From positions 124,001 through 188,000 of the forward strand of contig NZ_LR732331.1 in NCBI RefSeq assembly GCF_902506325.1: a stretch of DNA of 64,000 bases, written 5' to 3'. Origin of the DNA: Limnobacter sp. 130. GTDB taxonomy: Bacteria > Pseudomonadota > Gammaproteobacteria > Burkholderiales > Burkholderiaceae_B. The stretch's first letter is position 1. The number at the start of each line of letters is the position of its first letter. Positions 10,382 to 60,232 of the stretch are shown here, in pieces. The notes below the pieces were generated by a model. The model had not been told where the DNA came from, ran no database searches, and saw only the letters and a program-made list of their open reading frames with translations. Both the position numbers and the translations under genes were made by a program.

Positions 10382-10513
10382 TTCCTGCATCCTTCTTTTG
10401 ATGGTCATCAACCTCGCAACCCACCCGATGGTTCGGGTGGAGGTACGCAATAGATCGTTGGCGCGAGAAGGAAGTTACAGTGTCTTAAAAATATAATTTT
10501 CAGACGATTGTAT

Positions 10514-38453: not shown

Positions 38454-38498
38454 ATTCTCTAAAGATTTTCACGATGCGTTGAAAAAACACTTGATTAT

Positions 38499-38517
38499 AG
38501 TAATGCGAATCATTATT
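38499..38517. promoter_or_regulatory. Fur box for bfd
   Basis: agtaatgcgaatcattatt matches 14 of 19 Fur-consensus bases and ends 36 bases before the bfd GTG start. Derepression of bfd under iron starvation would release stored iron. Confidence 0.75.
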
Positions 38518-38553
38518 ATTAATTTCAAGTTCAACGCATTTTGAGGTCCGCCC

Positions 38554-38754
38554 GTGATCGTATGCATTTGTGCCAATGTTAGCGACCGTACCATTTCCGA
38601 AGCTGTTCGCAGCGGTTGCGGTTCTGTAGACGACATCACCATGAAAACAGGTGCATGTTCAGGCTGTGGCCAGTGCCGCATGCACTGCCAAAGCGAAATT
38701 GATGCTCACAATACGCTGGTTCAGGTCAGCGAAATGAGCCAGCAAACAGCCTGA
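38554..38754 (+). CDS. bfd: Bacterioferritin-associated ferredoxin
   Basis: A 66-residue [2Fe-2S] protein (BFD-like domain). Cysteines at CIC (4, 6) and in GACSGCGQC (around 34-41) supply the cluster ligands. It delivers electrons to the bacterioferritin haem to mobilise iron. The start is GTG 38554. Its stop is two bases from the convergent end of the siderophore operon. Confidence 0.93.
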   Translation: MIVCICANVSDRTISEAVRSGCGSVDDITMKTGACSGCGQCRMHCQSEIDAHNTLVQVSEMSQQTA

Positions 38755-38755
38755 T

Positions 38756-39931
38756 TTATTCCAGGTAAACAACCTGGGGCGGCGCGTGCATCAAGAAATT
38801 CTGGTGCGAAATATTCCACGCATAAGCCCCTGCCAGCGTAAACACCAGGTAATCACCAAGAGCCAATTCTTGAACCGGGAGTTGGTGGTGCAAACGATCT
38901 TTTGGTGTGCACAGCTGCCCCACAATATTCGCCGTTGAATTGTGTACAACCGCAGCCTGTCCGTTGCGGTGCACCCACACTGGGTGGTTGTGGCTTTGTG
39001 CCGCAGGCGTTCGGAAGTGATGGGTACCGCCTTTGCCAATCGCAAACCACTGTCCATGGCTTTGTTTCAGATCAATCACTTCCATCACGTAGTGCCCACA
39101 AAACGCGCTTACAAAGCGGCCGCATTCAAACCTGATTTGCCGTGTTTGCAGGTCGTGTTGCTTGATCAACTCATCAAGCTGACTACAAAATTGTTCCCAG
39201 TTGAACTGTTCGTCAACGCACTGGTAGTTCACGCCAATCCCGCCGCCCACATTCAACACTTTGCTGCGAATGTGCCATTGCGATTCCCATTCACGATTGA
39301 TCTGAAAGTATCGTTCCATCAATTTCAAATGGTTCTCGACAGACATTTGATGCGACATGGAATGAAAATGAAATCCATCAAACTCAAGGTGTTGTGATTC
39401 TTGAATCAGCGCCAGCGCGGTGCCAAGGTCGCTGGGGTCGAGCCCAAAGGGGGTGGCTTGACCGCCCATTTGCAGTTTGCTGCCCGCGATACCGTCGAGC
39501 GCAATATTCATGCGCAGCATGATGGTTTGGGTTTGAGAGCCGTTGGCGCAAAGCGTGGCGAGGCGTTTCAGTTCAGTGAGACTTTCCACATGAATACAGG
39601 CCACATGTTGGTTCAGTGCCTGTTGCAGGTCTTCAGTGGTTTTGCCGGGGCCACCAAAAATCAGGGGTTTGCCAAATTGCTGCTCATTCAAGTGGGCCAG
39701 CTCGCCCGCCGATGCGGCTTCGAACCCGTCAACGTGTGGGGCCAGCGTGTTTAGCAGCCGCACATCGGGGTTGGCTTTGGCCGCGTAATACAGTTGGCAG
39801 TTTTGCGGAAGGTGCTGTTTCATGTGTTGTGCATGCGTGGCCAATGCAGGCAGGTCGTACACGTAGGCACACCAGGGTGATGTGCCTGAGCTGGCTTTTT
39901 CAACAAGCAGTTTCTTCAGTTTGTTTGTCAT
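38756..39931 (-). CDS. PLP-dependent decarboxylase, PvsE/SbnH-like
   Basis: A 391-residue fold-type III PLP enzyme related to diaminopimelate/ornithine decarboxylases. PLP Lys52 (YYAAKANPD), GGGIGVNY and the C-terminal Cys region (GQLCTPKDRL) are present. In vibrioferrin synthesis PvsE decarboxylates a citryl-serine intermediate; SbnH acts on a citryl-diaminopropionate intermediate in staphyloferrin B. Position last after two NIS synthetases, MFS and ATP-grasp matches pvsE. The ATG at 39931 overlaps the upstream gene by 32 bases; a start three codons earlier is also possible. Confidence 0.85.
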   Translation of the reverse strand: MTNKLKKLLVEKASSGTSPWCAYVYDLPALATHAQHMKQHLPQNCQLYYAAKANPDVRLLNTLAPHVDGFEAASAGELAHLNEQQFGKPLIFGGPGKTTEDLQQALNQHVACIHVESLTELKRLATLCANGSQTQTIMLRMNIALDGIAGSKLQMGGQATPFGLDPSDLGTALALIQESQHLEFDGFHFHSMSHQMSVENHLKLMERYFQINREWESQWHIRSKVLNVGGGIGVNYQCVDEQFNWEQFCSQLDELIKQHDLQTRQIRFECGRFVSAFCGHYVMEVIDLKQSHGQWFAIGKGGTHHFRTPAAQSHNHPVWVHRNGQAAVVHNSTANIVGQLCTPKDRLHHQLPVQELALGDYLVFTLAGAYAWNISHQNFLMHAPPQVVYLE

Positions 39932-41648
39932 GGTGTGCAATCAAAGGATGTGAAAGAAATGTGTAGTCTGAAAGGCGGTCTGCCTTTCTGAATAAACGTG
40001 TTTTAAGATTGTTTTTCGATGCCAGTGCATGCCCTTGCAGCAAATCGGAAAGGGCCTGTGGTTCACCCAACTCATGGAGAATGTTTTGCAACAATGTTGC
40101 AAGGTGTTGCCAGGCGCGTTGTTCCAGGCCCGGGGTATGCTGGCAGGCGTGGAAAATCATCTCGGCAATGTTGTTCACGAGCAGGCAATAACTGACTCTT
40201 TTCCAGCCCTGGTCTGCGGAATAATGCACCGAAGCAATCGCACGTTCCGAAAGGTTTTTCAGGCGTTCATGGGGCCAATGTTGCGGAATCAGCTTGGTGC
40301 CTTCCAGGTCGCGGATCCATACCTGCACGGGCAATCCGTTTGAAGTGGCCAACACCGTATTTTGCAAATGCGGTTCAAGTACTACGCCATGTTTAAACAG
40401 CAAGGTTAGCGTGCCGGGTACCAGCAGTTTGAAGTAACACTGTAACCAGTTCAGGATGAATTCAGCCTTGCCTGCACCCTGCTGTGCGGCCTGTTCGGCC
40501 TGTTCGCCAAGTCGCAGTGCCAGTTGACTTTCACCCGAGTTGTTCCAGGCGGCAAGGGATCCAGCCATGTGAATATCGCTGTGCTGGGTGCGAAGTTGTT
40601 CCCTGAAAATAATTCCGAAGCTTTCCTGCAGGTTGACGGTTTCTTCGATGCTGGCGGCTGTGTAGGTTTGGTTCAGGTTCAGTGTGCAGGCCGACGGTTC
40701 CCGCAACATGCGAAAGCCAGGGTGCCTGTATTCAACCTGTTCAAAGGTGGGTGCAAGTAATTCAGTCATTCCCACTGCACTTTCAAGTTCGTACCATGCA
40801 TTTTTGCGAATGCAGTTGGTCAGGCGAACATGAATGGAGCATTTCAAAAACACATCGAGTTCAGGGTGATACAGCGTGCGCACCGACGACGTGGGCCACA
40901 CCACTTTGCCCAAAGGGCCAAGGTGGCGAATCAGTTTTTTCTGGTTTGCCTGTTGATAAATTCTTGAGCCCAGAACAAGGTTCACTTCCCATGGGTGGCA
41001 AGGGTACAAACCGCCACGCCCGGTTAGCACTTCAGACACTTTGTTGATCACTGGCTTCCCCAGTTCTTGCAGCAGGGCAGGATCAATGTCAAACCAATGC
41101 AACTGGAAAGCGGCGCCCACTTCTGGTGAGCAGTTCATAAGTTCGTCGGGCTGGACACCCGAGCGGCTTTTCGGACTCGGGTGAAACGGGTGCCCCCACA
41201 GCAAGGACTGTTCGGTGTGTTGCAAGGCGTTCAGGTAAGGCACTTTGGTGCTGTTCAAAAACCTTTGCATGTTCTGCAGGCTATTGTTGATCTGCGCCTG
41301 CAATTCGACGTTTGGTTCGGTTTGGGTCAGCATGGCCATGTGTTCGAGCAGGGCTTGAATGGCCGCTTGCGTACTCAGTACTTGCCATGGTTTTCCCATG
41401 GGTTTGGCAAACAGTTTTGAGCCCAGTTTGATCTGGTTCAATGCGCCCCGTGCCTGTACCTTGAAAGCGATTTTCAGCACGGGGTAGGCTGTGCGAATTC
41501 TTACGGTTTCGCCTTCCAGCAGGTCGCTTTGCAAGGCCTTGGGCAAGTCGCCCTGAGCATGCCAGTCGACCAGTTGATGCGGCACTGCAAATTCGCGCAG
41601 GTAGCAGTTCAGCAGGTGGTTGAGACTGTGGAGTTCAGCTTGAGACAT
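39900..41648 (-). CDS. IucA/IucC-family NIS siderophore synthetase, PvsD-like
   Basis: A 582-residue NRPS-independent siderophore synthetase that adenylates a carboxylate, usually citrate, and joins it to an amine or alcohol. Motifs: GHPFHPSPKSRSG (152-164), LKCSIHVRLTNCIRK, the HMAGSLAAW region, EPHLQNTV and the C-terminal KNNLKTR from the FhuF-like part. By order it corresponds to PvsD, which starts vibrioferrin by coupling citrate to serine. It overlaps the MFS gene by 40 bases. Confidence 0.88.
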   Translation of the reverse strand: MSQAELHSLNHLLNCYLREFAVPHQLVDWHAQGDLPKALQSDLLEGETVRIRTAYPVLKIAFKVQARGALNQIKLGSKLFAKPMGKPWQVLSTQAAIQALLEHMAMLTQTEPNVELQAQINNSLQNMQRFLNSTKVPYLNALQHTEQSLLWGHPFHPSPKSRSGVQPDELMNCSPEVGAAFQLHWFDIDPALLQELGKPVINKVSEVLTGRGGLYPCHPWEVNLVLGSRIYQQANQKKLIRHLGPLGKVVWPTSSVRTLYHPELDVFLKCSIHVRLTNCIRKNAWYELESAVGMTELLAPTFEQVEYRHPGFRMLREPSACTLNLNQTYTAASIEETVNLQESFGIIFREQLRTQHSDIHMAGSLAAWNNSGESQLALRLGEQAEQAAQQGAGKAEFILNWLQCYFKLLVPGTLTLLFKHGVVLEPHLQNTVLATSNGLPVQVWIRDLEGTKLIPQHWPHERLKNLSERAIASVHYSADQGWKRVSYCLLVNNIAEMIFHACQHTPGLEQRAWQHLATLLQNILHELGEPQALSDLLQGHALASKNNLKTRLFRKADRLSDYTFLSHPLIAHHDKQTEETAC

Positions 41649-42814
41649 TGGCGTGATCCTGTTTTTTGAATGTGATAAACAAGTGGCATGGCAGCAAGGC
41701 TTGCCACGGCGGAAAGCAGAAAAGGCGAAGCAAGGGTCATGTGGCTGACTGCAAAACCGGCACCAATGCCTGCGGCCACACCGGCCAGTTTTCCGACGCT
41801 ATCGAGTGAACCAAACCAGGCGCCGGCGTGCGCAGCCTGAAATGATTTTGCAACCAGTTGGTGAATGCCGTGGTAACCCATCCAGATGCCAACGCCAAAC
41901 AAAATGCGTGCTCCCGCCAACGCCAACTCGTTGCTGAATTGCCACTGAATGCATGCGGCAGTCGCAAGCGTCAACATGCTGAGTTGGCAATTGAAAGCCC
42001 AGTTTGGAAAACGCTTTTTCAGCAGCGGTTGAAGCAGTAAATAAACAAGGTGGGGCAGTACGTACAGCAGGGCAATGGCTGTTGTGCTGGCAATGCCGGG
42101 GGCAGCATAGGGAAGAAAATACGGGAATGTGACCACCATTGCGAAGCAGAACAGGGCTTGCAGACTGCACACGGCCAGCGTCGATGCATATTGATCTGGC
42201 GGGTTTATTTCATTGGCAATGGCATCTTTTTTTACCGCCGGGTTTAAGTGTGCCGAGTTCGGTTGGCTCGAGTCTTTGGGCAATGTGAAGGCATACAGTG
42301 CACCCAGCATGGGGAGAGCGGCCAACACAATGTACAGTTGTTGCAACTTGAGATACTCAATGCCAACAGCCAGCACCAATGGCGCAGTGAGCAGCGCCAT
42401 GCGCGCGCTGAACTGTGTCCAGTTCAATGTGGCTGCCAGGGTTTCACGCGGCATGGTGGTGGCCAGATAGGAATTGGCCGCAGCCAGCGTGCCGCCCATG
42501 AGGCCTTGCAGGGTTAATGCCATGACCAGTTCGGGCACTGAACTGGCAACACCGACCCACACGAACGCGATGGACAAACCGGCCAGTGCACGAATCAACG
42601 AGAAACGCCGGCCAAACCGGTCAGCCACTTTGCCCCACAGCGGGCCGCTGAGTGCGGTCAGCAGTGTGGGCCATGCAAATACAAATCCGATCCATGGGCT
42701 GTTCGATGGCAGCCCCAGATCGGTGAACAGCAAGGGCAGGTAAAGGGGCATACCCAACACTGTGAATGCGGCCAGAAAATGGCAGGACAGCACTGCGAGC
42801 AAGACACGATTCAT
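41609..42814 (-). CDS. MFS exporter in siderophore operon, PvsC-like
   Basis: A 401-residue major facilitator protein with about 12 hydrophobic helices. The loop motif GKVADRFGRRFSLIRAL between helices 2 and 3 is the MFS signature. Its place between the two NIS synthetase genes fits the exporter PvsC of vibrioferrin or SbnD of staphyloferrin B. The ATG 42814 overlaps the preceding stop in an ATGA junction; a longer frame upstream lies inside the previous gene. Confidence 0.87.
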   Translation of the reverse strand: MNRVLLAVLSCHFLAAFTVLGMPLYLPLLFTDLGLPSNSPWIGFVFAWPTLLTALSGPLWGKVADRFGRRFSLIRALAGLSIAFVWVGVASSVPELVMALTLQGLMGGTLAAANSYLATTMPRETLAATLNWTQFSARMALLTAPLVLAVGIEYLKLQQLYIVLAALPMLGALYAFTLPKDSSQPNSAHLNPAVKKDAIANEINPPDQYASTLAVCSLQALFCFAMVVTFPYFLPYAAPGIASTTAIALLYVLPHLVYLLLQPLLKKRFPNWAFNCQLSMLTLATAACIQWQFSNELALAGARILFGVGIWMGYHGIHQLVAKSFQAAHAGAWFGSLDSVGKLAGVAAGIGAGFAVSHMTLASPFLLSAVASLAAMPLVYHIQKTGSRQCLKLNSTVSTTC

Positions 42815-44517
42815 GGCAGGTCTCGCAAGGGGTTGGGGCCAGTCATGCCGTAAAACTTGTTCACGTCGCGTGCGCCGCACTCTTGTTTGCTCAACAGGCT
42901 CGCGCTTTGCAACAGGTACTTAACAGGATGCATGCGTGAATACAACAACAGCTCGCTGGCCAGGTCGGTGTCGAATCCCTCCTTGCGCAGGTTGCTCAGG
43001 GTGTGTTCAATGGCCTTGCGCAATGTAAGCAAAGCTTGTTGGCGATTCAGGGCACCACTTTGGGCGAGCCCGTCGAGCACAGCAAGCAAGTTCAGCTGCA
43101 GGGTGATGGTGATAAACATGTGGGCAAGCGGTGCCTCGTCGTTCACCAGAATGCGGGCGTCTTGCAGGTCGTGCACATTGTGTCCGTGGCTTGCAGCGGC
43201 TGTTTCAAAGCGACTTGGCCACAAACGTGCCGCGTCGTTGTCTTTCATCACAAGCGTGGGTGGTCGCCCTGGGCGCAACGACAGCACCGAATTTTGTTGA
43301 TTCGATTCCAGCGCAATGCCATGTTGAATCCACAAGCGAAGGTGCACGCCAATCATCAGTGTGCAATAGCTTGCCCACCAGCTTTGCAAGTCTTGCCCTT
43401 GTTGTTCCAGGTACTCAAGCAGATAAGATTTTCCGCTGGGCATGGGGCTGCACAACGTGGCCACGGTAGCCAGTGTTTCATCGGGCAATTCTGCCGGGTA
43501 CAGACGGTGTAAAAAACCTGCGGTGTTCAGTTGTTTGTAGCAGCCGGTGAACGATTCATCCACGTGTCGGTACAAGCCTTTGATTCCTTCATTGGTTTGT
43601 TCGATCGACGCAAGCGCCCGGGCAAACCAGTCGCCATCCCTCAGGGTAGATGGCTTGATGTAGCGAATATTTTTCTGGCCCAGTGTGGCAATGGGCATGG
43701 GTAGTTTGAGGTGTGAGGCGGGGTGGTTCAGCACGGCCACAGTGCGCACCGACAGCGTGGGTTTGACGGACAAATACGTGTGTGGTGCTTCAATGCTTTC
43801 CGGGATGCCCTGTGCTATTGCAGCGCGCATCATGGGGTGAACCGGCAGCAATGTGTGTGTGGTGCAAAGTGACTGTGGCAGACCCACCTGTGCCAGTGTG
43901 GGCCACCACACGGGTTCAGTGCCTGTACTTTCAAATTCGCTTGCAGGCACGGCAAACCAGGCCAGCTCAAACGTGGGGTTGAACTCGGGTGAATAGGCCT
44001 TCAGTTCGCTGGTGTCCATACCGAATTTTGCACGGGCGGTGGGGTAATACGGATGATCCAGAAAACTGGCCATTTGATCGGCGTGCAGCATGCGCTCGGC
44101 CCAGTTGCGCGGGCTGTCATTAAAATTCAGTTGGTGCTGCTGTTCTGTGTAGGTTTGATCACACAGCACGGTTTGATCAATGGCCGCTTGCACTTCAAGT
44201 TCATAATTTCGGTACAGGGCGGCTGAATCTTCGGGCAAGCCTTGCGCCAGAAAACGGATCCATTGCCTTGCGCCGTGTTGCTCAACCCACTGACCGTGTT
44301 GACGTATTTCCCAGTGGGGGTTGGTGGCCCGGTGGGTTTGCATGCTGGGGCTTTCTTTCACTTCAATTCTGCAGGCGGTGGGCAGGTGGTCGAACACCAG
44401 AAATGTGCGGCCTTCGTTGGCTTCAATACGTCCCAAACTGAGTAGGTTACGAACGTCTTCCCGCAGGCAGGTATTGATCAGTCGTAGCGCAATTCGCTGG
44501 TTGTGCAGTGTGTTCAT
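42811..44517 (-). CDS. IucA/IucC-family NIS siderophore synthetase, PvsB-like
   Basis: A 568-residue NIS synthetase, paralogous to the gene two places downstream. Motifs: SFLDHPYYPTARAKFGM (ATP-binding region, 151-167), YLSVKPTLSVRTVAVLN, GIALESNQQNSVL and VMKDNDAARLW. By order it corresponds to PvsB, which joins the two halves of vibrioferrin. The start ATG 44517 forms an ATGA overlap with the ATP-grasp gene. Confidence 0.87.
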   Translation of the reverse strand: MNTLHNQRIALRLINTCLREDVRNLLSLGRIEANEGRTFLVFDHLPTACRIEVKESPSMQTHRATNPHWEIRQHGQWVEQHGARQWIRFLAQGLPEDSAALYRNYELEVQAAIDQTVLCDQTYTEQQHQLNFNDSPRNWAERMLHADQMASFLDHPYYPTARAKFGMDTSELKAYSPEFNPTFELAWFAVPASEFESTGTEPVWWPTLAQVGLPQSLCTTHTLLPVHPMMRAAIAQGIPESIEAPHTYLSVKPTLSVRTVAVLNHPASHLKLPMPIATLGQKNIRYIKPSTLRDGDWFARALASIEQTNEGIKGLYRHVDESFTGCYKQLNTAGFLHRLYPAELPDETLATVATLCSPMPSGKSYLLEYLEQQGQDLQSWWASYCTLMIGVHLRLWIQHGIALESNQQNSVLSLRPGRPPTLVMKDNDAARLWPSRFETAAASHGHNVHDLQDARILVNDEAPLAHMFITITLQLNLLAVLDGLAQSGALNRQQALLTLRKAIEHTLSNLRKEGFDTDLASELLLYSRMHPVKYLLQSASLLSKQECGARDVNKFYGMTGPNPLRDLP

Positions 44518-45671
44518 TGAACGCTCCAGGGATTGCACTTGTAGGTTTCACTTTGTAGTTGTTGCAGTTCGATTTCGGAATCGGCCTGGAAGGTGAACAC
44601 GCCAATGTAGTCTTTGTTGGAGTGGCTGATTTGTAATGTTTCCCCTTCCTGTTTGATTGCCCGGTATTGAACCTTTCCATTGTTTTCAATGCGCGGTGCC
44701 AGGCGCACGGTGCCTGGCTTGGACGCAACCAGGTAATTGATTTGTGCGTAGGTCGGTTTTACATGTGGCACGTCAATTTCATGACCAAGGTGAATTTGTA
44801 AAATGGATTTGAACCAGCCTTGTTCCACAAGTTGATCAAGCAAAAATTCGCGGTTGTCGCCAATGCTGCGGTAATTGATTTCCACCAAAACCGGGCCACG
44901 CGGAGTCACGATGAATTCACTGTGGCAAGCGCCCAGCGCCACGCCAAATTGCGCAAGAATGTGTGCCATGTGCGTGCGCCATTGCCGCGTGTGCGGGCCA
45001 TTCCATTGCGCCGCAGTTTCAACAAAATAGGGTGGGTTGGACAGGCTGACGTCGAACCCGCCGATGGTGTGCAGGTGTTTGCCATCGCCCAGCGTTTCAA
45101 GCGTGATGAGCGGGCCGTCCATGAATTCCTCCAGCAACACGCTTTGCGATTCATCAATTTGTGCAAGATATTGATTGAGCTGTGCGGGCGTGTCGACGCG
45201 AACCACATCCATGGATGCCACACCTTGTGTGGGCTTGACCACCAAAGGGAAAGGCCATTCCATGTTTACCGGATCGCCGCGGCGAATTGTTTGACTCCAG
45301 ATGGTGGGCAGGTGAAGCGATTCAAGCCTTTTTCGCATCCAGTGTTTGTTTTTCGCGTGGTAACAAACCTGCCAGGGTTTTGCAGGAACACCCAACAGCG
45401 AGGCCACCAGCGCGGTGCAGGTTTGAAGGTGATCGCTATTGGAGAATACGGCCCGGGGTTGAATTTTCAGTGCGGCGATCAGGTCAATTACTGCGATTGG
45501 GTTGAACACATCGCATTCATGAATGTGTACATTGGCCAGCGCTTGCTGATGTGCATGGCCGTGGTCGGTCAACACAATGACGTCGTGCCCCAGCGATTGG
45601 GCTGCTGGAATGAATCCATCGACAATCGCATTGTTCAAAACATGGGTCAGGAAAACAATGGTGGGTTTCAA
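44514..45671 (-). CDS. ATP-grasp ligase, PvsA-like
   Basis: A 385-residue carboxylate-amine ligase. ATP-grasp marks: FPLVVKPTQGVASMDV, VLLEEFMDGP and the metal-binding VEINYRSIGDN. The frame runs far upstream into the aldolase gene, but TTG 45671 has AAGGAG eight bases before it and directly adjoins the aldolase stop. An ATP-grasp protein at the head of a pvs-type operon is expected to make the amide part of vibrioferrin (alanine with 2-oxoglutarate). Staphyloferrin B clusters do not contain one. Confidence 0.82.
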   Translation of the reverse strand: MKPTIVFLTHVLNNAIVDGFIPAAQSLGHDVIVLTDHGHAHQQALANVHIHECDVFNPIAVIDLIAALKIQPRAVFSNSDHLQTCTALVASLLGVPAKPWQVCYHAKNKHWMRKRLESLHLPTIWSQTIRRGDPVNMEWPFPLVVKPTQGVASMDVVRVDTPAQLNQYLAQIDESQSVLLEEFMDGPLITLETLGDGKHLHTIGGFDVSLSNPPYFVETAAQWNGPHTRQWRTHMAHILAQFGVALGACHSEFIVTPRGPVLVEINYRSIGDNREFLLDQLVEQGWFKSILQIHLGHEIDVPHVKPTYAQINYLVASKPGTVRLAPRIENNGKVQYRAIKQEGETLQISHSNKDYIGVFTFQADSEIELQQLQSETYKCNPWSVQ

Positions 45672-45672
45672 T

Positions 45673-46461
45673 TCAGGCTCCTTGAGGGGCGGGCTGGAGT
45701 GTGTGGAATGGTTGAAGGTTGTTGCGCAGTGTTTTGCTGAAGTGGCTGCGGTCTTCACCACACAGAAAAAGAGTGCAGCCCAGTTCTTGCCAGTGTCTCT
45801 GTTGACTCGGTGTTCGTGGATTCGGGCAAAAAGGGACATTGGCTTGAACGCAAATTTCATGCATGTTGTTCAATGCTTCGAACGTGGCCGGGTGCAAGGG
45901 GCTGGGTCCAAGGCCCAGGTTCAAGGCAAGGTCTAGCGCACCCTCCATGACAAAGCTGACCTGCCCGGTGGCCAGCATATCGGGCAGGGCAGTCAAGCCA
46001 CTTTGGCTTTCAATCATGGGCACGAGCAAGATTTCCTCGTTGGCCCGCGCAATGTAGTCACTCAGGGCAAGTTGTCCGTAGCCGGTGACCGTGCCACCTG
46101 TAATGCCACGCTTGCCCAGCGGGGGAAACTTCATGGCCTGCGCCAGTGCATGAATTTGATCGGCAGTTTCGGCACGCGACAACACAATACCCATGGCCCC
46201 GGCATCCAGCACCTTCCCGATGAAGTTGGGGCGAACTTCAGCAACACGTACCAATGGCATGCAGCGGTGGTGTCGACAGGTTTGAATGCATTCGCGCAAG
46301 GTATTTTCATCGAGTAGTACGTGTTCGGTGTCGATGATGACGAAGTCGTAATTGCACTGGGCAATCATGTCGACGATCAGCGGAGAGGGCAGGGAATTCA
46401 GCAAGCCCAGCCAAGGTGACTGGTTGGGCTTTGGCTTGGTCAGCGGGGAGGATTGGATCAT
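45673..46461 (-). CDS. HpcH/HpaI-family citrate synthase, SbnG-like
   Basis: A 262-residue TIM-barrel protein of the class II aldolase (HpcH/HpaI) family. Active-site segments are IIDTEHVLLD (His47), PLVRVAEV (Arg72), MIESQSG (Glu151) and EGALDLALN (Asp177). In staphyloferrin B clusters the homologue SbnG makes citrate from oxaloacetate and acetyl-CoA, giving the siderophore pathway its own supply. As the first gene of a citrate-using operon behind a Fur box, that role is the best inference; a plain aldolase cannot be excluded. Confidence 0.78.
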   Translation of the reverse strand: MIQSSPLTKPKPNQSPWLGLLNSLPSPLIVDMIAQCNYDFVIIDTEHVLLDENTLRECIQTCRHHRCMPLVRVAEVRPNFIGKVLDAGAMGIVLSRAETADQIHALAQAMKFPPLGKRGITGGTVTGYGQLALSDYIARANEEILLVPMIESQSGLTALPDMLATGQVSFVMEGALDLALNLGLGPSPLHPATFEALNNMHEICVQANVPFCPNPRTPSQQRHWQELGCTLFLCGEDRSHFSKTLRNNLQPFHTLQPAPQGA

Positions 46462-46472
46462 TCTTTAATTTA

Positions 46473-46491
46473 GTAAATGAGAATGATTTAT
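46473..46491. promoter_or_regulatory. Fur-like box for the siderophore operon
   Basis: gtaaatgagaatgatttat matches 12 of 19 consensus bases and starts 12 bases before the aldolase start on the minus strand. The core aatgagaaygatttayatta (18 of 20 identical) is repeated in the same orientation at 46636-46655. Confidence 0.75.
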
Positions 46492-46632
46492 ATTAGCATT
46501 AAATAAAATAAAGCTTCAAAAGATTTAACAATTCATCGCTCGAAATGGGTACTGGCGCATGAATTCTTTTGCTTATTGAATAAAAAAGTTGGCTTTGGCA
46601 GCGGGGTACAACAAACTAATGGTAAAAATAAA

Positions 46633-46651
46633 GATAATGAGAACGATTTAC
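46633..46651. promoter_or_regulatory. Fur box for the siderophore receptor
   Basis: gataatgagaacgatttac matches 14 of 19 Fur-consensus bases and ends 20 bases before the receptor start. With the box at 46473 it puts both divergent transcripts under iron control. Confidence 0.8.
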
Positions 46652-46671
46652 ATTAACTAAAGGAAATTGCA

Positions 46672-48744
46672 ATGTACTCTTCTGATGGTCGTGCTGACAC
46701 ACGCCAACGTCCCCTTGTTTCCCCGCTTTCCATGGCAGTTGCCATGGTTTGCCTTTCATTGGGTAATGCAGCCTTTGCTGAAACCCTGGCACCGGTTACC
46801 GTGCAATCCGACTGGTTGGGCCCACCCACTGAGGAAAGCGTAAAAACCTACACGGGTGCGCGCACCGTGCTTGAAAAAGAAGACCTTGAAGAGCGTGGTG
46901 CATTGAACCTGGAAGATGCATTGCGTCGTGTGCCGGGTGTTCAAGTGCTCGATGAGACCGGTACCGGGATTTTGCCCAATATTGGCTTGCGCGGCTTGAA
47001 CCCCTTGCGCAGCGAGCGCATTCAAATTTTGGTAGACGGGTACCCGATTGCCATTGGCCCCTACACCAACGTGGGCTTGTCGCTGTTCCCGGTTACCTTG
47101 CCCAGCCTTGAAGCGGTGGACTTGGTGCGTGGCGGTGCGGCTGTTCATTACGGCCCGAACAACGTGGGTGGCGTGCTGAATTTGGTGACCAAAGCCATTC
47201 CAGCAAAAACCAGCCAAACCTTCCGCGAACGCCTGCAAATTTCCGAAGAAACCGGGAATATGTTGACCGACACCTACTACCGCATTGGTGGTTTTGTTCG
47301 TGAAGATCTGGGTTTGCAATTTCAGGCGAACATTGTGGATGGCAAGGGCCAGCGTGATCGTTCCGACACCGAAGTACGTAACTTTATTGTGGATGGCGAG
47401 TACTACCTGAACGCCAACAACGATTTCAAAGCGCAGTTGCAGTACTACGAAGTGAAGGCCGAGTTGCCGGGAGCCTTGAGCCCGACAGCGTACGAGCAGA
47501 ATCCGAACCAGTCGCAAAAGCCCTTTGATGCGTATGACGCCGACATGTGGCGTGGCACGTTCACCTGGAACCATTCGTTTTCAGATGACTTCAAGTTGAC
47601 CTGGCGCAACTTTGCACACCAAGCCAACCGCACTTTCTTCTTTAGTCAGTCGGCCACTTTCTCGGATGACCCGGCACAAACGCCAGCGTTTGTTCTTGAT
47701 TCTCCGCGCGTATTCAGCGTACATGGCACAGAGCCACGTTTCACCAAGCAGATCGGCAACCACACGGTGATTGCAGGTGCACGTTTTGTTGAAGAAGATG
47801 TGCGCTTCGACGTAAGCCGCACCACACTGGCAACTGGATCGGTCAACCCGTTCCGTCGCTGGGACTTTACAACCAAAGCCATGGCTTATTACGTAAGCGA
47901 CACCATCGCCTTGATGGATGATCGTTTGAAAGTAACGCCCGGTATTCGTTATGAAGATGTTGAAACCCGTTACCGCGATTTGAACACAGGTACGGAATTT
48001 CAAAACAACCCGGATGAATGGTTGCCCGGCTTGACCGTGGGCTACCAGGCCACCAAAGATGTGTTTGTGTTTGCCAATGCACAACGTTCACTGGTACCAG
48101 TGCAAACCGCGCAGGTTACACGGGGTGGCGATGTGGGCAATGAAACAGCTGAGAACTACGAAATTGGTTCGCGCTGGCAAATCAATCCCCAAGCCAATAT
48201 TGCAGCGACCCTGTTCCGTGTGGATTACAAAGATCAAATTGTTTTCGATACAGGTGCATTCCGCAACCTTGGCGAAACACGCCAAGAGGGTGTTGAACTG
48301 GAAGGCCGCTGGAACCTGAACAGCCAAACCGAGTTGGGCATGAGCTACACCTACCTGGACACCGAGCAGTTGTCTGGCGCCGACCAAGGCAAAGAGTTGC
48401 GCAATGCGCCCACGCACCACCTGGGCTTTGATGCTGTTTACAAGTTCGACAAGTGGACAGCCAATGCCAATGCTTTGTATGTGTCTGAAAGCTTCAGTGA
48501 TTCAGCCAACACGCAAGCCGAAACTGCCAACGGCAGCGCGGGTGAATTGCCAGCCTATACTTTGGTGAACATGCGCGTGGGTCGCGATTTCCCGATTGGT
48601 CAGGGCAGAAACATGAACCTTGGTTTTGGTATTAACAACCTGTTTGATGAGCAGTATTTCTTCCGTGGTGTGGATGTGAGCACAACTGGCCGCGTGCCAG
48701 CACCAGGACGTATGTTGCTGGTTGAAATGCAGGTTGATTTCTGA
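46672..48744 (+). CDS. TonB-dependent carboxylate-siderophore receptor, PvuA/FecA-like
   Basis: A 690-residue outer-membrane receptor divergent from the siderophore operon and thus its likely cognate importer. Signal peptide to about residue 36 (NAAFAE), plug (DALRRVPGVQVLDE, IGLRGLNPLRSERIQILVDG, VDLVRGGAAVHYGPNNVGG) and barrel ending in Phe. The plug resembles FecA-type ferric-carboxylate receptors. No FecIR-type N-terminal signalling domain is present. Ribosome-binding site AAGGAA lies seven bases upstream. Confidence 0.9.
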   Translation: MYSSDGRADTRQRPLVSPLSMAVAMVCLSLGNAAFAETLAPVTVQSDWLGPPTEESVKTYTGARTVLEKEDLEERGALNLEDALRRVPGVQVLDETGTGILPNIGLRGLNPLRSERIQILVDGYPIAIGPYTNVGLSLFPVTLPSLEAVDLVRGGAAVHYGPNNVGGVLNLVTKAIPAKTSQTFRERLQISEETGNMLTDTYYRIGGFVREDLGLQFQANIVDGKGQRDRSDTEVRNFIVDGEYYLNANNDFKAQLQYYEVKAELPGALSPTAYEQNPNQSQKPFDAYDADMWRGTFTWNHSFSDDFKLTWRNFAHQANRTFFFSQSATFSDDPAQTPAFVLDSPRVFSVHGTEPRFTKQIGNHTVIAGARFVEEDVRFDVSRTTLATGSVNPFRRWDFTTKAMAYYVSDTIALMDDRLKVTPGIRYEDVETRYRDLNTGTEFQNNPDEWLPGLTVGYQATKDVFVFANAQRSLVPVQTAQVTRGGDVGNETAENYEIGSRWQINPQANIAATLFRVDYKDQIVFDTGAFRNLGETRQEGVELEGRWNLNSQTELGMSYTYLDTEQLSGADQGKELRNAPTHHLGFDAVYKFDKWTANANALYVSESFSDSANTQAETANGSAGELPAYTLVNMRVGRDFPIGQGRNMNLGFGINNLFDEQYFFRGVDVSTTGRVPAPGRMLLVEMQVDF

Positions 48745-48761
48745 TCACGACGTACCCAGTG

Positions 48762-48800
48762 AAAAGCCGGTGGTGAAGCAATTCATCACCGGCTTTTTTT
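48762..48800. terminator. Bidirectional intrinsic terminator
   Basis: A stem of about 16 bp (gccggtggtgaa / ttcatcaccggc plus an A/T extension) with a four-base loop is flanked by A- and T-tracts on both sides. It ends the receptor transcript and the convergent cytochrome transcript, whose stop codon lies in its edge. Confidence 0.9.
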
Positions 48801-50768: not shown

Positions 50769-51059
50769 TTAACTTGACCGGGCAAGTACCCATGTCGATA
50801 GCACAGCCAATGCCGCTGCGGCCATTACCCAAAGCACCAAGCCAAAACCAATGCCCTCAACAAGGACCATCAGGATTGCGCTGACCAGCAAGGCAAGAAC
50901 ACCTGCAATGCGACGCAGCATAATTGTTCGCAGCCCGATTGCGTTGCAGCGCCCAGCCCAACGGCGATGGCGAAAGTGGGCCTGCTGGGACAGTGCAATG
51001 GACAGCAAACCAAAAAACAGAAGCGGCAAGGCCAACGCAAGCTGCAGTGTTAGTTGCAT
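50769..51059 (-). CDS. DUF3325 small membrane protein
   Basis: A 96-residue protein with two or three hydrophobic helices (LALALPLLFFGLLSIAL; IAGVLALLVSAILMVLVEGIG; LVLWVMAAAALAVLSTW), matching DUF3325. This family regularly accompanies DUF3649 and PepSY proteins next to siderophore receptors. The ATG 51059 overlaps the PepSY gene by 10 bases. Function unknown; a helper of the PepSY reductase is plausible. Confidence 0.8.
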   Translation of the reverse strand: MQLTLQLALALPLLFFGLLSIALSQQAHFRHRRWAGRCNAIGLRTIMLRRIAGVLALLVSAILMVLVEGIGFGLVLWVMAAAALAVLSTWVLARSS

Positions 51060-52687
51060 TTCAAGGCCTCGCTGTGTGCAGGCTGCCTGGCTGAAGACTT
51101 GATCACAACTTTGCGAGCCGTGTAAATGCCGCTTGCAACCATGATGAGCAAACCAATATCGATGGCCAATGAATTCATGTCCCCTTGGCGAATTGCTGCG
51201 ACCATGCCACCTGTGTTGATCTGGTTCAGTAACCAGGCCAGACCACACAGCACGGTGAATGCCACCGTGGGTGCAAACCACTGGCTGCTTCGATGGGCTT
51301 GCGCATGGATCTGTAAATGCCGGCCTTTGCGGGCGTTGACAAAAGCCCAGACAATACTGCCAACCCAGACCCCATAAAACACCCAGGTTTCCACTGTGGC
51401 GCGGTTGTTGAGGTGATCTGGAATAAGCTGGTTGGCCACCAGAAAAGCCGCGGTGGCGATCATCATGCCCAGTGTGCCGCCCACAGTCAGCGCTTGAACT
51501 ACGGTAAACCCGGGCAGCTTTTTCTTGTGGTGTTGAACACGGCGTGCTTCAAGCCAAAACAGAAAACCGGTGTGAATCATGACGCAACCGAGCAAGCCGC
51601 CAATCACGTACAGCACGCGCAGCGCTGCGTGGTCGAATTGAATGAAGTGAAGGCCGTTGATCCAGTGCGTAAACCCCTTGATGGGTTTGGGTTCGTGGGC
51701 GTGGAGCAGCGCACCGGTGTGCAGCAGCAGTGTGTCTGCGTGGGTGCTCATCGCAATGCTGCGTGCGGGAAATACCCTGCGAATTTCAAGCGTCGCATTG
51801 CTGTCGGTCAGGTTGCGAATGTTGATGGCGTCGGCACGTGCTGGTTCGCCCAAGGCTTGGCTCCATGCCGCTTCCCGTGCCTGAACAAGCGCAGGCACAC
51901 TTTTTAATGCGGCAAGCTGTTGATCGGTGTTTTCAATAAAGTCACTGGCTGGCAAATTGATAAAACCGCTCATGGCCTTTTGTGCAGCGGCCTTGTCGTT
52001 ATCAAATGCAGCCAGTGTGGCCCACGGAAAATAGATGGAGAAGAAAATCAACAACCCTGTGAAAGTGATGATGAAATGAAACGGCAGTGCCACCACGCTG
52101 CTCAGGTTGTGTAAGTCGAGAAGACTGCGCACCGTGTGCTTTTTGGGGCGAAACACAAAGAATTCAGCCAGCAGTTTCCGATGAAGCACAATGCCGCTGA
52201 TGAGCAGGGCCATCATGGCCAGGCCTGCAATACCCAGCATGAAATAACCCACATCTTTCCACGCAATATTGAACTTGTAGTGGAAGGGGAAAAAGAAGCC
52301 GCTGCCCCCCAAGGTGTGTTCATTGCTGACCACCTTGCCAGTGTCGGGATCCATGAAATAGGCTTTCAAGCTGCGATCGGGTTCGACAATGCGGATCAAT
52401 GTCATGGGCGTGCGCTCGGTGGGCAGGCGCAATCGAATGTTGTCGGATTCGGGCGCCAGTTCACGCGCTTTCATCAACACGGCTTCAAGTTGTTGCGGGC
52501 TCAGTGTGCAGCATTCACCGGCTATGCTGCGGCTCTCGGGGTGCATCCAGCGATCAAATTCCCGGTCAAATACCGTCAGTGTGCCCATCCAGAAAACGGC
52601 GAACAACAAAAAGCCAATGAACAGGCCAAACCAGGTGTGAAACCAGGCCATGTGTTGGCGAACGGATGGGGCTTTGTGCTTGCTCAC
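51050..52687 (-). CDS. PepSY-associated membrane protein, ferrisiderophore reductase-like
   Basis: A 545-residue inner-membrane protein with four main transmembrane regions and periplasmic PepSY-type loops, similar in layout to FoxB and FpvG. Those proteins reduce ferric siderophores in the periplasm or inner membrane to free iron. His residues in the helices (HTWFGLFIGF, LHNLSSVVALPFHFIITFTG, HWINGLHFIQFDHAALRVLYV) could bind haem. It lies downstream of a hydroxamate-type receptor, which makes iron release from that siderophore the likely job. Confidence 0.87.
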   Translation of the reverse strand: MSKHKAPSVRQHMAWFHTWFGLFIGFLLFAVFWMGTLTVFDREFDRWMHPESRSIAGECCTLSPQQLEAVLMKARELAPESDNIRLRLPTERTPMTLIRIVEPDRSLKAYFMDPDTGKVVSNEHTLGGSGFFFPFHYKFNIAWKDVGYFMLGIAGLAMMALLISGIVLHRKLLAEFFVFRPKKHTVRSLLDLHNLSSVVALPFHFIITFTGLLIFFSIYFPWATLAAFDNDKAAAQKAMSGFINLPASDFIENTDQQLAALKSVPALVQAREAAWSQALGEPARADAINIRNLTDSNATLEIRRVFPARSIAMSTHADTLLLHTGALLHAHEPKPIKGFTHWINGLHFIQFDHAALRVLYVIGGLLGCVMIHTGFLFWLEARRVQHHKKKLPGFTVVQALTVGGTLGMMIATAAFLVANQLIPDHLNNRATVETWVFYGVWVGSIVWAFVNARKGRHLQIHAQAHRSSQWFAPTVAFTVLCGLAWLLNQINTGGMVAAIRQGDMNSLAIDIGLLIMVASGIYTARKVVIKSSARQPAHSEALKCN

Positions 52688-55487: not shown

Positions 55488-56633
55488 ATGAAAAAGTGGA
55501 TGGTTGCCGGTTTTGCCCTGGCATTGTGCAACGTGGCTTTGGCTGCACCTTCAGCCGACGAGGTTGTAAGGGGTTATGGACAATTGGTGTATGCAAACTA
55601 CACCGACTCTGTGAATGCTGCGAAAAAAATGCAAGCTGCCATTGATGCGTTTTTAAAAGCACCTTCGCAAGCTGAAATGAACACTGCAAAAAAAGCATGG
55701 CTTGATGCGCGTGAGTTCTACGGACAAACCGAGGCTTTCCGCTTTTATGGTGGCCCGATCGACGATGAGAATGGGCCGGAAGGCCAGATTAATGCGTGGC
55801 CCATGGACGAGTCGTATGTGGACTATGTGAAGGGCGATTCAAACAGCGGCTTCATTAACAACGGCAAATTCAACATCACCCGCGAAGCGCTGGTGGCGCA
55901 AAATGAACGTGGTGGAGAAGAAAACATTGCCACTGGCTGGCATGCCATCGAGTTTTTGTTGTGGGGTCAAGACTTGAACGACGACGGTCCCGGTGACCGG
56001 CCCTACACGGATTACGTGAAAGGCAAGGGTCGCAATGCCGAGCGCCGCGCTCACTATTTGCGTGAAGTGACTGCCCTGTTGATTCATGATTTACAAACCG
56101 TGCAGTCTGCCTGGGCTCCCGCCACACCGGATAACTTCCGCGCTGAATTTGAAAAGGGCGGCAAAGAGTCTGTTCGTCAAATTCTGGTTGGGCTGGGGTC
56201 TTTGTCGCGTGGTGAACTTGCAGGCGAACGGCTCGAGGTGGCTTTGTTCAGTCAGGATCAAGAGGATGAACATTCCTGTTTTTCAGACAACACCCATCGT
56301 GATGCGGTCAACAATGCGCAAGGCATATTGAATGTGTGGACCGGCACATACAAGCAAGCCAGCGGTGCTTTGCTGAAAGTGCCTTCGCTGGCTGAAATGG
56401 TCGCCGCCAAAGCGCCCAATGTGGCCAAAGAAACCACGCAACAGATCCAGAAATCGGTGAGTGCAGCCAATCAAATTCAAGCACCGTTTGATCGGGAAAT
56501 TATTGGCGGTACAGACGCACCCGGTCCGCAGCGAATCAAGGCGACAGTGGCCAGTTTGGTCAAACAGAGCACCTTGATCGTGGAATCTGCCAATGCAATT
56601 GGCATTACCCGGCTTACTTTGACCTTGCCTTGA
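55488..56633 (+). CDS. Imelysin-family (IrpA-like) iron-regulated protein
   Basis: A 381-residue exported protein (signal ends ALAA) of the imelysin/peptidase M75 family. The GxHxxE motif is present as GWHAIE (150-155). Imelysin-like proteins (IrpA, IcmP, EfeO relatives) are implicated in iron uptake by genetic context and structure; peptidase activity is doubtful. First of a four-gene operon behind a Fur box. Its last codons overlap the alternative TTG start of the next gene. Confidence 0.9.
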   Translation: MKKWMVAGFALALCNVALAAPSADEVVRGYGQLVYANYTDSVNAAKKMQAAIDAFLKAPSQAEMNTAKKAWLDAREFYGQTEAFRFYGGPIDDENGPEGQINAWPMDESYVDYVKGDSNSGFINNGKFNITREALVAQNERGGEENIATGWHAIEFLLWGQDLNDDGPGDRPYTDYVKGKGRNAERRAHYLREVTALLIHDLQTVQSAWAPATPDNFRAEFEKGGKESVRQILVGLGSLSRGELAGERLEVALFSQDQEDEHSCFSDNTHRDAVNNAQGILNVWTGTYKQASGALLKVPSLAEMVAAKAPNVAKETTQQIQKSVSAANQIQAPFDREIIGGTDAPGPQRIKATVASLVKQSTLIVESANAIGITRLTLTLP

Positions 56634-56647
56634 TTAGATACTTATCC

Positions 56648-58066
56648 GTGAAAAAAAATCGAAAATTAATAGTGTTTGCCTTGACCGCCACCTTGGTGGC
56701 GGGGGCTTCTTGGGCCGCAGGCGAGAGCATGACTGCCCGCAGCGCTGGCGACGCGACAGTGTTTGCAGACGGTCGCAATGCCTTCTCATTTCCAGCCGCC
56801 AATTTGCCGGATGAAGAGCGTACCCGGTTTGCAATCGGCAACTCGTTTTTCAAGCGCAACTGGGTACAGGCGCCAGCGTCGACCACCGCGCGAGACGGTT
56901 TGGGGCCGCACTTTATTGCACGTTCATGTGGTGGTTGCCATGTTCAGGATGGTCGCGGAAAACCACCTGAAATATTGAATCGCTTGAACAGTGAGCAGCC
57001 TGTTGATTTGTTGTTCAGGATTTCAATTCCGGGTGTGGGTGATCACCATGGCGTTGTGGCCGAGCCCACTTACGGTGATCAGTTGAACAATGCCGCTGTC
57101 GACGGTGTAAAGCCGGAAGGCAAGATCAGGATTGAAACCACGGAGGTGCGCGGCCAATACCCCGACGGCACACCGTATGTGCTGCAAAAGCCAAGCTACT
57201 CATTCACTGAATTGGCCTATGGGCCCATGCACCCCAAGGTGATGGTGAGCCCACGCATTGCGCCACAGGTAATCGGTTTGGGTTTGCTGGAAGCGATTGA
57301 GGAAAAAGATGTGCTGGCCAATGCCAGGCAACAGGCTGAGCAAGCGGGGCCGATCAAGGGTGTGCCCAATCGTGTTTGGGATGCCTACGCAAAGAAGGAG
57401 ATGCTGGGCCGTTTTGGCTGGAAGGCCAATGTGGCTTCACTGGCCCACCAAACCGGCGGTGCGTTTCTGGGTGACATCGGGATCACCAGCAGTTTGTTTC
57501 CCGTTGAAAACTGTACACCCTCGCAAAAGGATTGTTTGCAGGCACCCAATGGTTCTGACAATGGCGAGCCAGAACTGAGCGACAAACTGTTCAATGAAAT
57601 TGTGTTTTATCAGGCCGTACTGGCACCGCCTGCCCGTCGCAATGTAAACGACGTACAGGTGTTGAAAGGGCAAAAGTTATTTGAACAGGCGCAATGTGCG
57701 GTGTGTCATCGCCCCGCTTACACCACGGGCAAAGTGCCATTTCCGGCCTTGAGCAGCAAAGCACTTGAAGGGCAGGAAATTTGGCCCTACACCGATTTGC
57801 TGTTGCACGACATGGGCGACGGGCTTGCCGACAATCGCCCTGATTTTCACGCCAATGGCAGGCAATGGAAAACACCGCCTTTGTGGGGCATCGGCTTGAT
57901 TCCCGATGTCAATAACCACATGCGTTTGTTGCACGATGGCCGTGCAAACGGTGTTGAAGAGGCCATTCTTTGGCACGGCGGAGAGGCGGAACTTAGCAAA
58001 AACCGTTTCATGAAATTTTCTGCTGAAGACCGCGCTGCCTTGATCCGTTTTGTGGAGTCGTTGTAA
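56648..58066 (+). CDS. Di-heme c-type protein, DUF1111 family
   Basis: A 472-residue exported di-haem protein with CGGCH (94-98) and CAVCH (350-354) and the DUF1111 marks ELAYGPMHPKVMVSPRIAPQVIGLGLLE and TDLLLHDMGDGLADN. The start GTG 56648 begins a clean signal peptide; TTG 56630, overlapping the imelysin stop, is also possible. It is a paralogue of 7366-8676 but is not a lipoprotein. In the imelysin operon it may move electrons for periplasmic iron oxidation or reduction. Confidence 0.85.
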   Translation: MKKNRKLIVFALTATLVAGASWAAGESMTARSAGDATVFADGRNAFSFPAANLPDEERTRFAIGNSFFKRNWVQAPASTTARDGLGPHFIARSCGGCHVQDGRGKPPEILNRLNSEQPVDLLFRISIPGVGDHHGVVAEPTYGDQLNNAAVDGVKPEGKIRIETTEVRGQYPDGTPYVLQKPSYSFTELAYGPMHPKVMVSPRIAPQVIGLGLLEAIEEKDVLANARQQAEQAGPIKGVPNRVWDAYAKKEMLGRFGWKANVASLAHQTGGAFLGDIGITSSLFPVENCTPSQKDCLQAPNGSDNGEPELSDKLFNEIVFYQAVLAPPARRNVNDVQVLKGQKLFEQAQCAVCHRPAYTTGKVPFPALSSKALEGQEIWPYTDLLLHDMGDGLADNRPDFHANGRQWKTPPLWGIGLIPDVNNHMRLLHDGRANGVEEAILWHGGEAELSKNRFMKFSAEDRAALIRFVESL

Positions 58067-59163
58067 TGCATCCTCAACACCAGCATGAATTGAAACATGG
58101 TTTATTGCGTGGACTCATTTGCATTGTGCTTGCTGGGGTTTTGCTCTTGGTGATTAATTTGGCTGCGGCTGCAAAGCCTGTAGACAGAAGTACTTTGTTG
58201 TTTCCGTATTACGACGCTTCGGAAGTGTTGAACAGCACGGTGACTCACCACTACGCCAAAGACACGGCGGCGTTGTTGGCGCAGCTGGAGCAACTCGGCA
58301 ATTCAACCGCGAAGTATTGTCAGGGTGATTTACCGATTGATGCCTTGAAAACACAGTATTCAAAGACCTATCTGGTGTGGCTTGAATTGTCTGCTGTGGT
58401 GATGGGCCCGATGCTGCAGAACAATACAGTGCGGCAAATTGATTTTCGGCCATTGCGGGTGAACTTGCTTGAACGCGCAATCAAGAAACAGCCCCAGGGC
58501 GCCGAGGCCATGGCTTTGGTAGGAAGCCCGGCAAAGGGATTTCCGGCCATTGAATATTTACTGGGCCAACCAGGTTTCAAGGCCGCGTCGCCCCAGTGCA
58601 ATTACGCGCAAGAGGTGGTGAGAGACATGACTCGCACCGTGGCTGATTTGAACTGGCAACCCGCCAAACCAAACAGCGAAGAAGATGCTGATTCCTTGAA
58701 GGCCGACATGCAGCTGTATTTCAATCAACTGGTGGGTGCCACACACAACCTGGCTTGGGAGCGCATGGAAAAACCGTTGTTGAAAAGCAGGGACGACACC
58801 GCCAAAGGCGGCGCACCCGATTGGCCGTACGCTGAACTCGGGCTGACCGAAAACGCCTGGAAAGCGCAGTGGCAGGGCATTGCAGACTTGCTGGTGGTCA
58901 GCAGCCAGACCGTGCCCAACGCCGATCAACAGGTGGTGCCGCTGGAGGCCTACCTAAGGGGATTGGGCAAAATTGGTTTGGCGGACACATTGCTCGTTCA
59001 CAGCAATGCAGTTACAGCTGCGGTGAAGGCCAACGATGTTTCGAAGCCTGCCAGTGTTGAACAATCGGTGAAGGCGTCAAAAGCCTTGAAAGGTTTTTTG
59101 GAAACTGAAGTGGCCAAAGGATTAAACGTGTCAATCCAGTTTTCATCTTCAGACGGCGATTGA
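58066..59163 (+). CDS. Second imelysin-family protein, motif-degenerate
   Basis: A 365-residue imelysin-domain protein with an N-terminal membrane helix (LICIVLAGVLLLVINLAAA). At the place of the family GxHxxE motif it reads GFPAIE (158-163), so the His is replaced by Pro. It shares one base with the upstream stop (TAATG junction). Pairing of a canonical imelysin with a His-less paralogue around a DUF1111 gene is known from Pseudomonas-type loci; the pair may form a complex. Confidence 0.85.
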   Translation: MHPQHQHELKHGLLRGLICIVLAGVLLLVINLAAAAKPVDRSTLLFPYYDASEVLNSTVTHHYAKDTAALLAQLEQLGNSTAKYCQGDLPIDALKTQYSKTYLVWLELSAVVMGPMLQNNTVRQIDFRPLRVNLLERAIKKQPQGAEAMALVGSPAKGFPAIEYLLGQPGFKAASPQCNYAQEVVRDMTRTVADLNWQPAKPNSEEDADSLKADMQLYFNQLVGATHNLAWERMEKPLLKSRDDTAKGGAPDWPYAELGLTENAWKAQWQGIADLLVVSSQTVPNADQQVVPLEAYLRGLGKIGLADTLLVHSNAVTAAVKANDVSKPASVEQSVKASKALKGFLETEVAKGLNVSIQFSSSDGD

Positions 59164-59167
59164 GCCC

Positions 59168-60232
59168 ATGGTGTTGTCACGCCGACAATTTCTGTTGCAA
59201 GGCGGTGCAGTGGCACTGTCGCTGGCTTTACCCTTGCCCTCAAGGGCCGCTGTGAATGGCAAGCACGCCAGCTTGCTTGCGGCCTGGCAACTGCCAACAG
59301 CGGTTTATCAGGTGGGTGTGCTCAGCTGGAAAAATACCCGCCTGTCGACCCCTTACACCATCGATTCGGCAGTGGATTTACCCACCCGCCCACATGGTTT
59401 GATGCACCTTCAGGGCGATGAGTATTTGGTCATCGCGCGTCGCCCAGGCGACTGGATCATGCGCCTGAACATTCAAACCGGAGACACTGCGCGAACCTGG
59501 CAAGACGAAGACCGGCATTTGAACGGACACAGCGCAGTACACGGTGATTGCTTGTTCACCACAGAAACCGATGTGCTGACCGGGCAAGGTGTGCTGGGTG
59601 TTCGTCACCGGGAAACATTTGAGCTTCTCGATGTGTGGCCAACGCAGGGTCGAGACCCGCATGAAATGTTGGTGTTGCCCGGCGGTGTGTTGGGTATCGA
59701 TGAACCTTTTTTGTTGGTGGCCAATGGCGGCATACAAACCCATGCAGACATGGGGCGCACGCAACTAAACCACTTGCCCATGGATTCTTCCGTGGTGGCC
59801 ATGCACCCCCGAACGGGCAGGGTGTTGAACCAATGGACCCTGCGTGATTCGCGGCTCAGCCTGCGCCACATGGCCGTGCATGCCAGCGGTGTGGTGGGAA
59901 TTGCCATGCAGGCCCATCATGCTGTAGAGGCCGATCAAGAGGCGGCACCAGTGCTTGCCTTGCTCGATGAGCAAGGGTTGCGCCCGGTGGCTGAGTCGAT
60001 TGGTGTGAACGGCTATGCAGGCGATATTGCCACCACGCCCGAAGGCTTTGTGATCAGTTGCACCAAGAATGATTCAGCGGCCCAGTTTGATTTACAAGGC
60101 AAATTGCTGAATACGCAGCAGGCCAAAGCAGCCTGCGCCTTGGCCTCGCGGGGCGGTGAAGTTTGGTTGGGGCACCAGGCCGGTGAAGACAAGAATTCAT
60201 TCGCACTGGACAATCACTGGCTGCTTATTTAG
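59168..60232 (+). CDS. DUF1513 propeller protein, Tat-exported
   Basis: A 354-residue protein with a twin-arginine signal (LSRRQFLLQGG, 3-13) and a beta-propeller-like DUF1513 domain (HGLMHLQGDEYLVIARRPGDW, RDPHEMLVLPGG). It is the last gene of the imelysin operon, four bases after the second imelysin gene. Function unknown; Tat export suggests folding, or cofactor insertion, before transport. Its end overlaps the convergent PQQ gene by eight bases. Confidence 0.85.
   Translation: MVLSRRQFLLQGGAVALSLALPLPSRAAVNGKHASLLAAWQLPTAVYQVGVLSWKNTRLSTPYTIDSAVDLPTRPHGLMHLQGDEYLVIARRPGDWIMRLNIQTGDTARTWQDEDRHLNGHSAVHGDCLFTTETDVLTGQGVLGVRHRETFELLDVWPTQGRDPHEMLVLPGGVLGIDEPFLLVANGGIQTHADMGRTQLNHLPMDSSVVAMHPRTGRVLNQWTLRDSRLSLRHMAVHASGVVGIAMQAHHAVEADQEAAPVLALLDEQGLRPVAESIGVNGYAGDIATTPEGFVISCTKNDSAAQFDLQGKLLNTQQAKAACALASRGGEVWLGHQAGEDKNSFALDNHWLLI

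Follow-up and report, generated by a model that had tools for sequence, protein, structure and literature searches.

The Limnobacter sp. 130 locus described here reads as a vibrioferrin biosynthesis operon, putatively repressed by Fur, together with its receptor, and we put the probability of this reading at about 0.88. The operon opens with a gene for an SbnG-like protein of the HpcH/HpaI aldolase superfamily, a putative citrate synthase. The find is real and well supported, and its kind is an ordinary one: in the close relatives examined, an SbnG-like gene is usual outside Vibrio.

Gene organization and putative Fur control

All seven open reading frames of the locus are found in the window (the whole 64,000-nucleotide stretch analysed, positions 124,001 to 188,000 of contig NZ_LR732331.1) where the original prediction had placed them, and in the same order. 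The minus strand encodes, in the order of transcription, the SbnG-like putative citrate synthase (45673..46461; PF03328, SbnG clade), a PvsA-like ATP-grasp ligase (44514..45671; PF13535), a PvsB-like NIS synthetase (42811..44538; PF04183/PF06276), a PvsC-like MFS exporter (41609..42880; PF07690, with syntenic relatives in pvs clusters), a PvsD-like NIS synthetase of the AcsD/PvsD type (39900..41648; PF04183/PF06276) and a PvsE-like PLP decarboxylase (38756..39940; PF02784/PF00278). A TonB-dependent receptor gene (46672..48744, plus strand; TIGR01783), whose product likely takes the PvuA role for ferric vibrioferrin, diverges from the aldolase gene. Pfam scores of the operon proteins and the receptor are far over cut-off, except for the ATP-grasp domain, which passes modestly (34.8 versus 27 bits).

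The operon genes abut or overlap. For pvsA, the mechanical ORF start at 45860 was rejected, as it would make the gene overlap that of the aldolase, and a TTG codon at 45671, behind an AAGGAG ribosome-binding site, was taken instead. The most likely starts of pvsB and pvsC, judged from the reading frames, are ATG codons at 44517 and 42814, each of which would form a 4-bp ATGA overlap with the preceding stop codon. The only two IucA/IucC (NIS) genes of the entire genome are those of the operon. Its genes are open and syntenic in other Limnobacter, at protein identities of about 80-96%, and so the operon is not a chance arrangement.

The 210-bp spacer between the aldolase and receptor genes carries, at each end, one array in which Fur-like matches overlap at a 6-bp phase, one before the receptor gene (46627..46657) and one before the aldolase gene (46473..46497). 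Both arrays are built of 12-14/19 matches, the best of them 14/19 to GATAATGATAATCATTATC. Of Markov copies made from the spacer, about 2.4% contain a single match of 14/19 or better, and the real spacer has two. When six Limnobacter spacers are aligned, both arrays prove conserved and the middle of the spacer does not. These predicted, conserved sites suggest that operon and receptor are Fur-repressed, and a linked TonB-dependent receptor with putative Fur-like sites is a feature that the locus has in common with vibrioferrin clusters. The gene order, the divergent receptor and the Fur boxes on both sides that the original prediction had claimed are thus borne out.

Other iron-related features occur elsewhere in the window. 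The bacterioferritin gene is separated from pvsE by a gene for a BFD-like [2Fe-2S] ferredoxin (38554-38754), accompanied by a Fur-like site (14/19) at 38499. Genes for an imelysin, a di-haem oxidoreductase, an imelysin-like protein and a DUF1513 protein follow one another at 55488-60232, with a 13/19 Fur-like site at 55422, and probably form an iron-uptake operon. The highest-scoring Fur-like site in the window (17/19, positions 22-40) sits at the very start of a TonB-dependent receptor ORF (20-2221), which places the true start of that gene further in.

The NIS synthetases and the likely product

ATP-grasp ligase, NIS synthetase, MFS exporter, NIS synthetase and PLP decarboxylase stand here in the order of the vibrioferrin (pvs) operon. 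In a maximum-likelihood tree of 60 NIS synthetases, the first of the window's two enzymes nests among PvsB and the second among PvsD, each within a 17-sequence clade (support 100/99 and 100/100, respectively), and both clades include Azotobacter vinelandii CA, Xanthomonas and Vibrio. Tested for grouping with achromobactin or staphyloferrin enzymes, the two synthetases group with PvsB and PvsD instead, in keeping with the vibrioferrin-type cluster first proposed; AcsA, AcsC and AcsD (achromobactin; Sodalis and Thalassospira) as well as SbnC, SbnE and SbnF (staphyloferrin B; Pseudonocardia) fall outside both clades. We give almost no credence to a cluster of achromobactin or staphyloferrin B type, although AcsD (2w02) is the best solved relative of the window's PvsD and the SbnC and SbnF models match, under cut-off. 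The achromobactin clusters retrieved and the staphyloferrin B cluster lack an ATP-grasp gene and have three NIS genes each, the latter together with SbnA, whereas Limnobacter has an ATP-grasp gene and, in its entire genome, two NIS genes only. With the NIS tree also against them, both memberships were rejected.

The remaining biosynthetic enzymes have their relatives in the same clusters. The ATP-grasp ligase is 49-53% identical to those of the pvs clusters of Azotobacter, Pantoea and Zobellella, and PvsE is 49-57% identical to the products of pvsE-position genes in Azotobacter, Xanthomonas and Vibrio. Vibrioferrin production has been reported for Xanthomonas campestris, in which xssA mutants are without vibrioferrin (PMC5130282), for A. 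vinelandii (PMC10669500) and for Vibrio (PMC5812596). The Xanthomonas xss (xanthoferrin) cluster (L074), whose product was shown to be vibrioferrin (PMC5130282), has the same seven genes as that of Limnobacter, including a linked SbnG-like gene with a Fur box; its receptor gene lies between the aldolase gene and pvsA on the same strand, whereas the Limnobacter operon begins with the aldolase gene and its receptor gene is divergent. The cluster of A. vinelandii CA (L072) has the same genes as Limnobacter, at 40-52% identity, but in the order aldolase, receptor, pvsABCDE. Vibrio (V. fortis, V. splendidus and V. rotiferianus) has the pvsA-E order and divergent receptor of Limnobacter, but unlike it has no SbnG-like gene in either cluster or genome. 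The order of aldolase and pvsABCDE is identical to that of Limnobacter in Zobellella maritima (L059), a Pantoea soli plasmid (L031), Brenneria and Edwardsiella, and these clusters are also its nearest neighbours in the NIS trees.

Taken from sequence comparison, vibrioferrin is the predicted product. Identity between the window's enzymes and those of verified producers is no more than about 40-52%, and Limnobacter sits on a long branch (0.82-0.88) inside its subclade in both NIS trees; this would fit an analogue in which one building block, another amino acid or tricarboxylate, has been exchanged. Such an analogue is unlikely, given that the Limnobacter NIS enzymes are bracketed within the 17-sequence clade by producers of plain vibrioferrin and that no biosynthetic gene is extra or missing relative to the clusters of Zobellella, Brenneria and Pantoea. 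No isolated siderophore product from any Limnobacter strain is reported in the literature searched.

Vibrioferrin itself would be made as follows, the steps of the Pvs and Acs enzymes and the reaction of SbnG being established. Under iron starvation, the SbnG-like enzyme would join oxaloacetate and acetyl-CoA to give citrate, which PvsD would esterify with L-serine; PvsE would decarboxylate the serine to the ethanolamine unit, PvsA and PvsB would add the alanine/2-oxoglutarate arm, and PvsC would export the vibrioferrin. The divergent TonB-dependent receptor would bring ferric vibrioferrin back into the periplasm.

Receptor and iron import

The receptor scores over cut-off for TIGR01783 and under cut-off for the FecA equivalog model, and it is 70% identical to the Z. 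maritima receptor encoded divergently from aldolase-pvsABCDE. In Zobellella a FecCD-type ABC importer adjoins the cluster, whereas no dedicated FecCD-family ABC importer for ferric vibrioferrin was found in the Limnobacter genome, since its only FecCD permease belongs to a btuB-btuF-btuC-btuD-cobA-bluB vitamin B12 operon. Near the receptor gene lie genes for a PepSY_TM protein (51050-52687) and a DUF3325-like ORF (50769-51281). Of the seven Limnobacter genomes that bear the receptor, six, the window's among them, have an orthologue of the PepSY_TM protein (at least 75% identical), and none of the other genomes has one. Hypothetically, iron may be released in the periplasm by a membrane reductase of the PepSY_TM type or by light.

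The SbnG-like aldolase

The best solved relative of the aldolase, a protein of 262 aa, by sequence is Staphylococcus aureus SbnG (4tv5/4tv6; E 1.4e-39). In a search with its predicted fold (model pLDDT 86), SbnG again ranks first of 1900, with HpaI structures close behind in fold score. A tree separates 26 SbnG-like proteins, among them that of the window, from 11 proteins of HpaI, GarL and RhmA type with support of 100/100, which upholds the SbnG-like identity put forward in the original prediction. About 20 positions consistently distinguish the SbnG group from the aldolases, and at these the window protein carries the SbnG-group residue, as at F40 (not W), M149 (not Q), E173 (not I), A175 (not P), C212 (not G), W224 (not Y), R216 and R238; it also retains E151 of SbnG, the residue altered in the 4tv6 variant. 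The diagnostic residues are common to SbnG of staphyloferrin B (S. aureus 4tv5; Pseudonocardia pBCI2-1), which is homologous to the window aldolase but belongs to another subclade. The pvs-linked aldolases, the window's included, form a subclade of their own beside another, to which SbnG, the achromobactin enzymes and Cupriavidus belong; the window aldolase is 33-38% identical to the aligned SbnG, achromobactin, Cupriavidus and Rhodococcus enzymes.

An ordinary catabolic pyruvate aldolase of HpaI type, linked to the operon by chance and making no citrate, would have the same superfamily and fold and would also match the TIGR02311 HpaI and GarL models, as the window protein does under cut-off. 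The tree and the SbnG-group residues nevertheless speak for SbnG, and SbnG-like genes are repeatedly linked to siderophore clusters that use citrate, in different genera and two phyla; a catabolic HpaI-type enzyme, rejected by the tree, is very unlikely. Homology and context suggest that the pvs-linked SbnG subclade would synthesize citrate; we know of no enzyme assay for any of its members. We hold it improbable that this branch is functionally distinct from staphylococcal SbnG, for instance through a citrate analogue or through citrate channelled directly to PvsD, so that the operons would yield a variant of vibrioferrin or draw on a citrate pool of their own, later given up by Vibrio and Marinomonas.

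Distribution of SbnG-like genes in pvs clusters

The original prediction had taken SbnG to be a property of staphyloferrin B clusters, which would make it unusual in a pvs operon. This premise does not hold: of the 80 pvs loci from named genomes that come closest to the window's, 75 were evaluable, and an SbnG-like gene is linked to 70 of these, a fraction that is not a census because the loci were picked by similarity to the window. Three layouts recur, with the SbnG-like gene first in the operon (Limnobacter, Zobellella, Pantoea, Brenneria and Edwardsiella), before the receptor gene (Azotobacter, Xanthomonas and many Pseudomonas) or inverted (Shewanella); it lies at the 3' end in Cupriavidus pHG1, two other genomes of the same GTDB class and Rhodococcus. 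SbnG-like genes are also linked to achromobactin clusters. On a plasmid of Pseudomonas mandelii JR-1 (L032), an SbnG-like gene of the pvs subclade (10001-10759) lies near a Tn3 transposase and has no pvs genes with it; it is perhaps the remnant of a cluster.

The five evaluable loci without an SbnG-like gene belong to three Vibrio and two Marinomonas (L133, L121, L131, L132 and L070). The gene is likewise absent from all 14 pvsD-bearing genomes among the 118 Vibrio sampled, two of which have HpaI-type genes at 25-27% identity. Since the SbnG-like gene is present in Shewanella, beside which Vibrio and Marinomonas nest, the simplest reading is that the gene was probably lost in an ancestor of the latter two. 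Given the differing gene positions, repeated recruitment is possible.

Parts of this picture have precedents. The 2014 paper on the SbnG structure reportedly pointed out that other siderophore clusters, too, have homologues. In Xanthomonas, XCC3049 has an aldolase annotation and a Fur box, and its number adjoins that of XCC3050, which is the receptor in a pvuA-pvsABCDE-like cluster of six genes described in 2007 (PMC1790865). Vibrioferrin-type genes were reported in 2023 from Limnobacter MAG 11 of a Trichodesmium consortium, and the original prediction's remark on the photoreactivity of ferric vibrioferrin had already been made there for vibrioferrin-type clusters, including the Limnobacter one (PMC10734445). 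No paper naming both vibrioferrin and SbnG was found in the literature searched.

Citrate supply

With two canonical genes of the citrate synthase family in the genome, the SbnG-like enzyme comes on top of these and does not replace them. Vibrio make vibrioferrin without SbnG. The accepted explanation for SbnG in staphylococci is that iron shortage turns down the TCA enzyme (PMC12096840). By analogy, it is plausible that in Limnobacter, too, the SbnG-like enzyme keeps up citrate when iron shortage throttles the TCA cycle, and citrate supply may be independent of this cycle, as the original prediction proposed.

Evolution at the Limnobacter site

Limnobacter genomes were compared in the region bounded by the bacterioferritin gene and a cytochrome c gene. 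The full cluster with its receptor is present at this site in the window's genome, G001, G006, G012, G013 and strain P1, and neither pvs genes nor receptor in G003, G007 and G010. Two genomes, G008 (L171) and G005 (L172), have the receptor alone, at about 95% identity when compared with window positions 38454-48798; a search of both for decayed pvs genes found none. The DNA of receptor-only G008 is 98.7% identical to that of G006, with the full cluster, up to the break. Receptor-only Limnobacter are possibly users of vibrioferrin made by others.

PvsD-like genes occur in only 8 of 369 sampled genomes of the same GTDB class, distant types counted. In the NIS trees, Limnobacter groups with Zobellella and Enterobacterales and not with Cupriavidus, an indication that the cluster was transferred from gammaproteobacteria in the NCBI sense. 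Base composition, by which recent acquisition was judged, shows no sign of it, the GC content of the cluster (53.7%) equalling that of the window (53.3%).

Conclusions

Outside Vibrio, vibrioferrin operons regularly include a gene for a dedicated SbnG-like putative citrate synthase, and it is the well-studied Vibrio operon that looks the exception, having probably lost it. Whether vibrioferrin output under iron starvation depends on SbnG or on the citrate synthase of the TCA cycle is now a question that can be put to the test in Azotobacter. In Limnobacter, the occurrence of producer, receptor-only and empty genotypes at one site offers a natural setting in which to study siderophore sharing.
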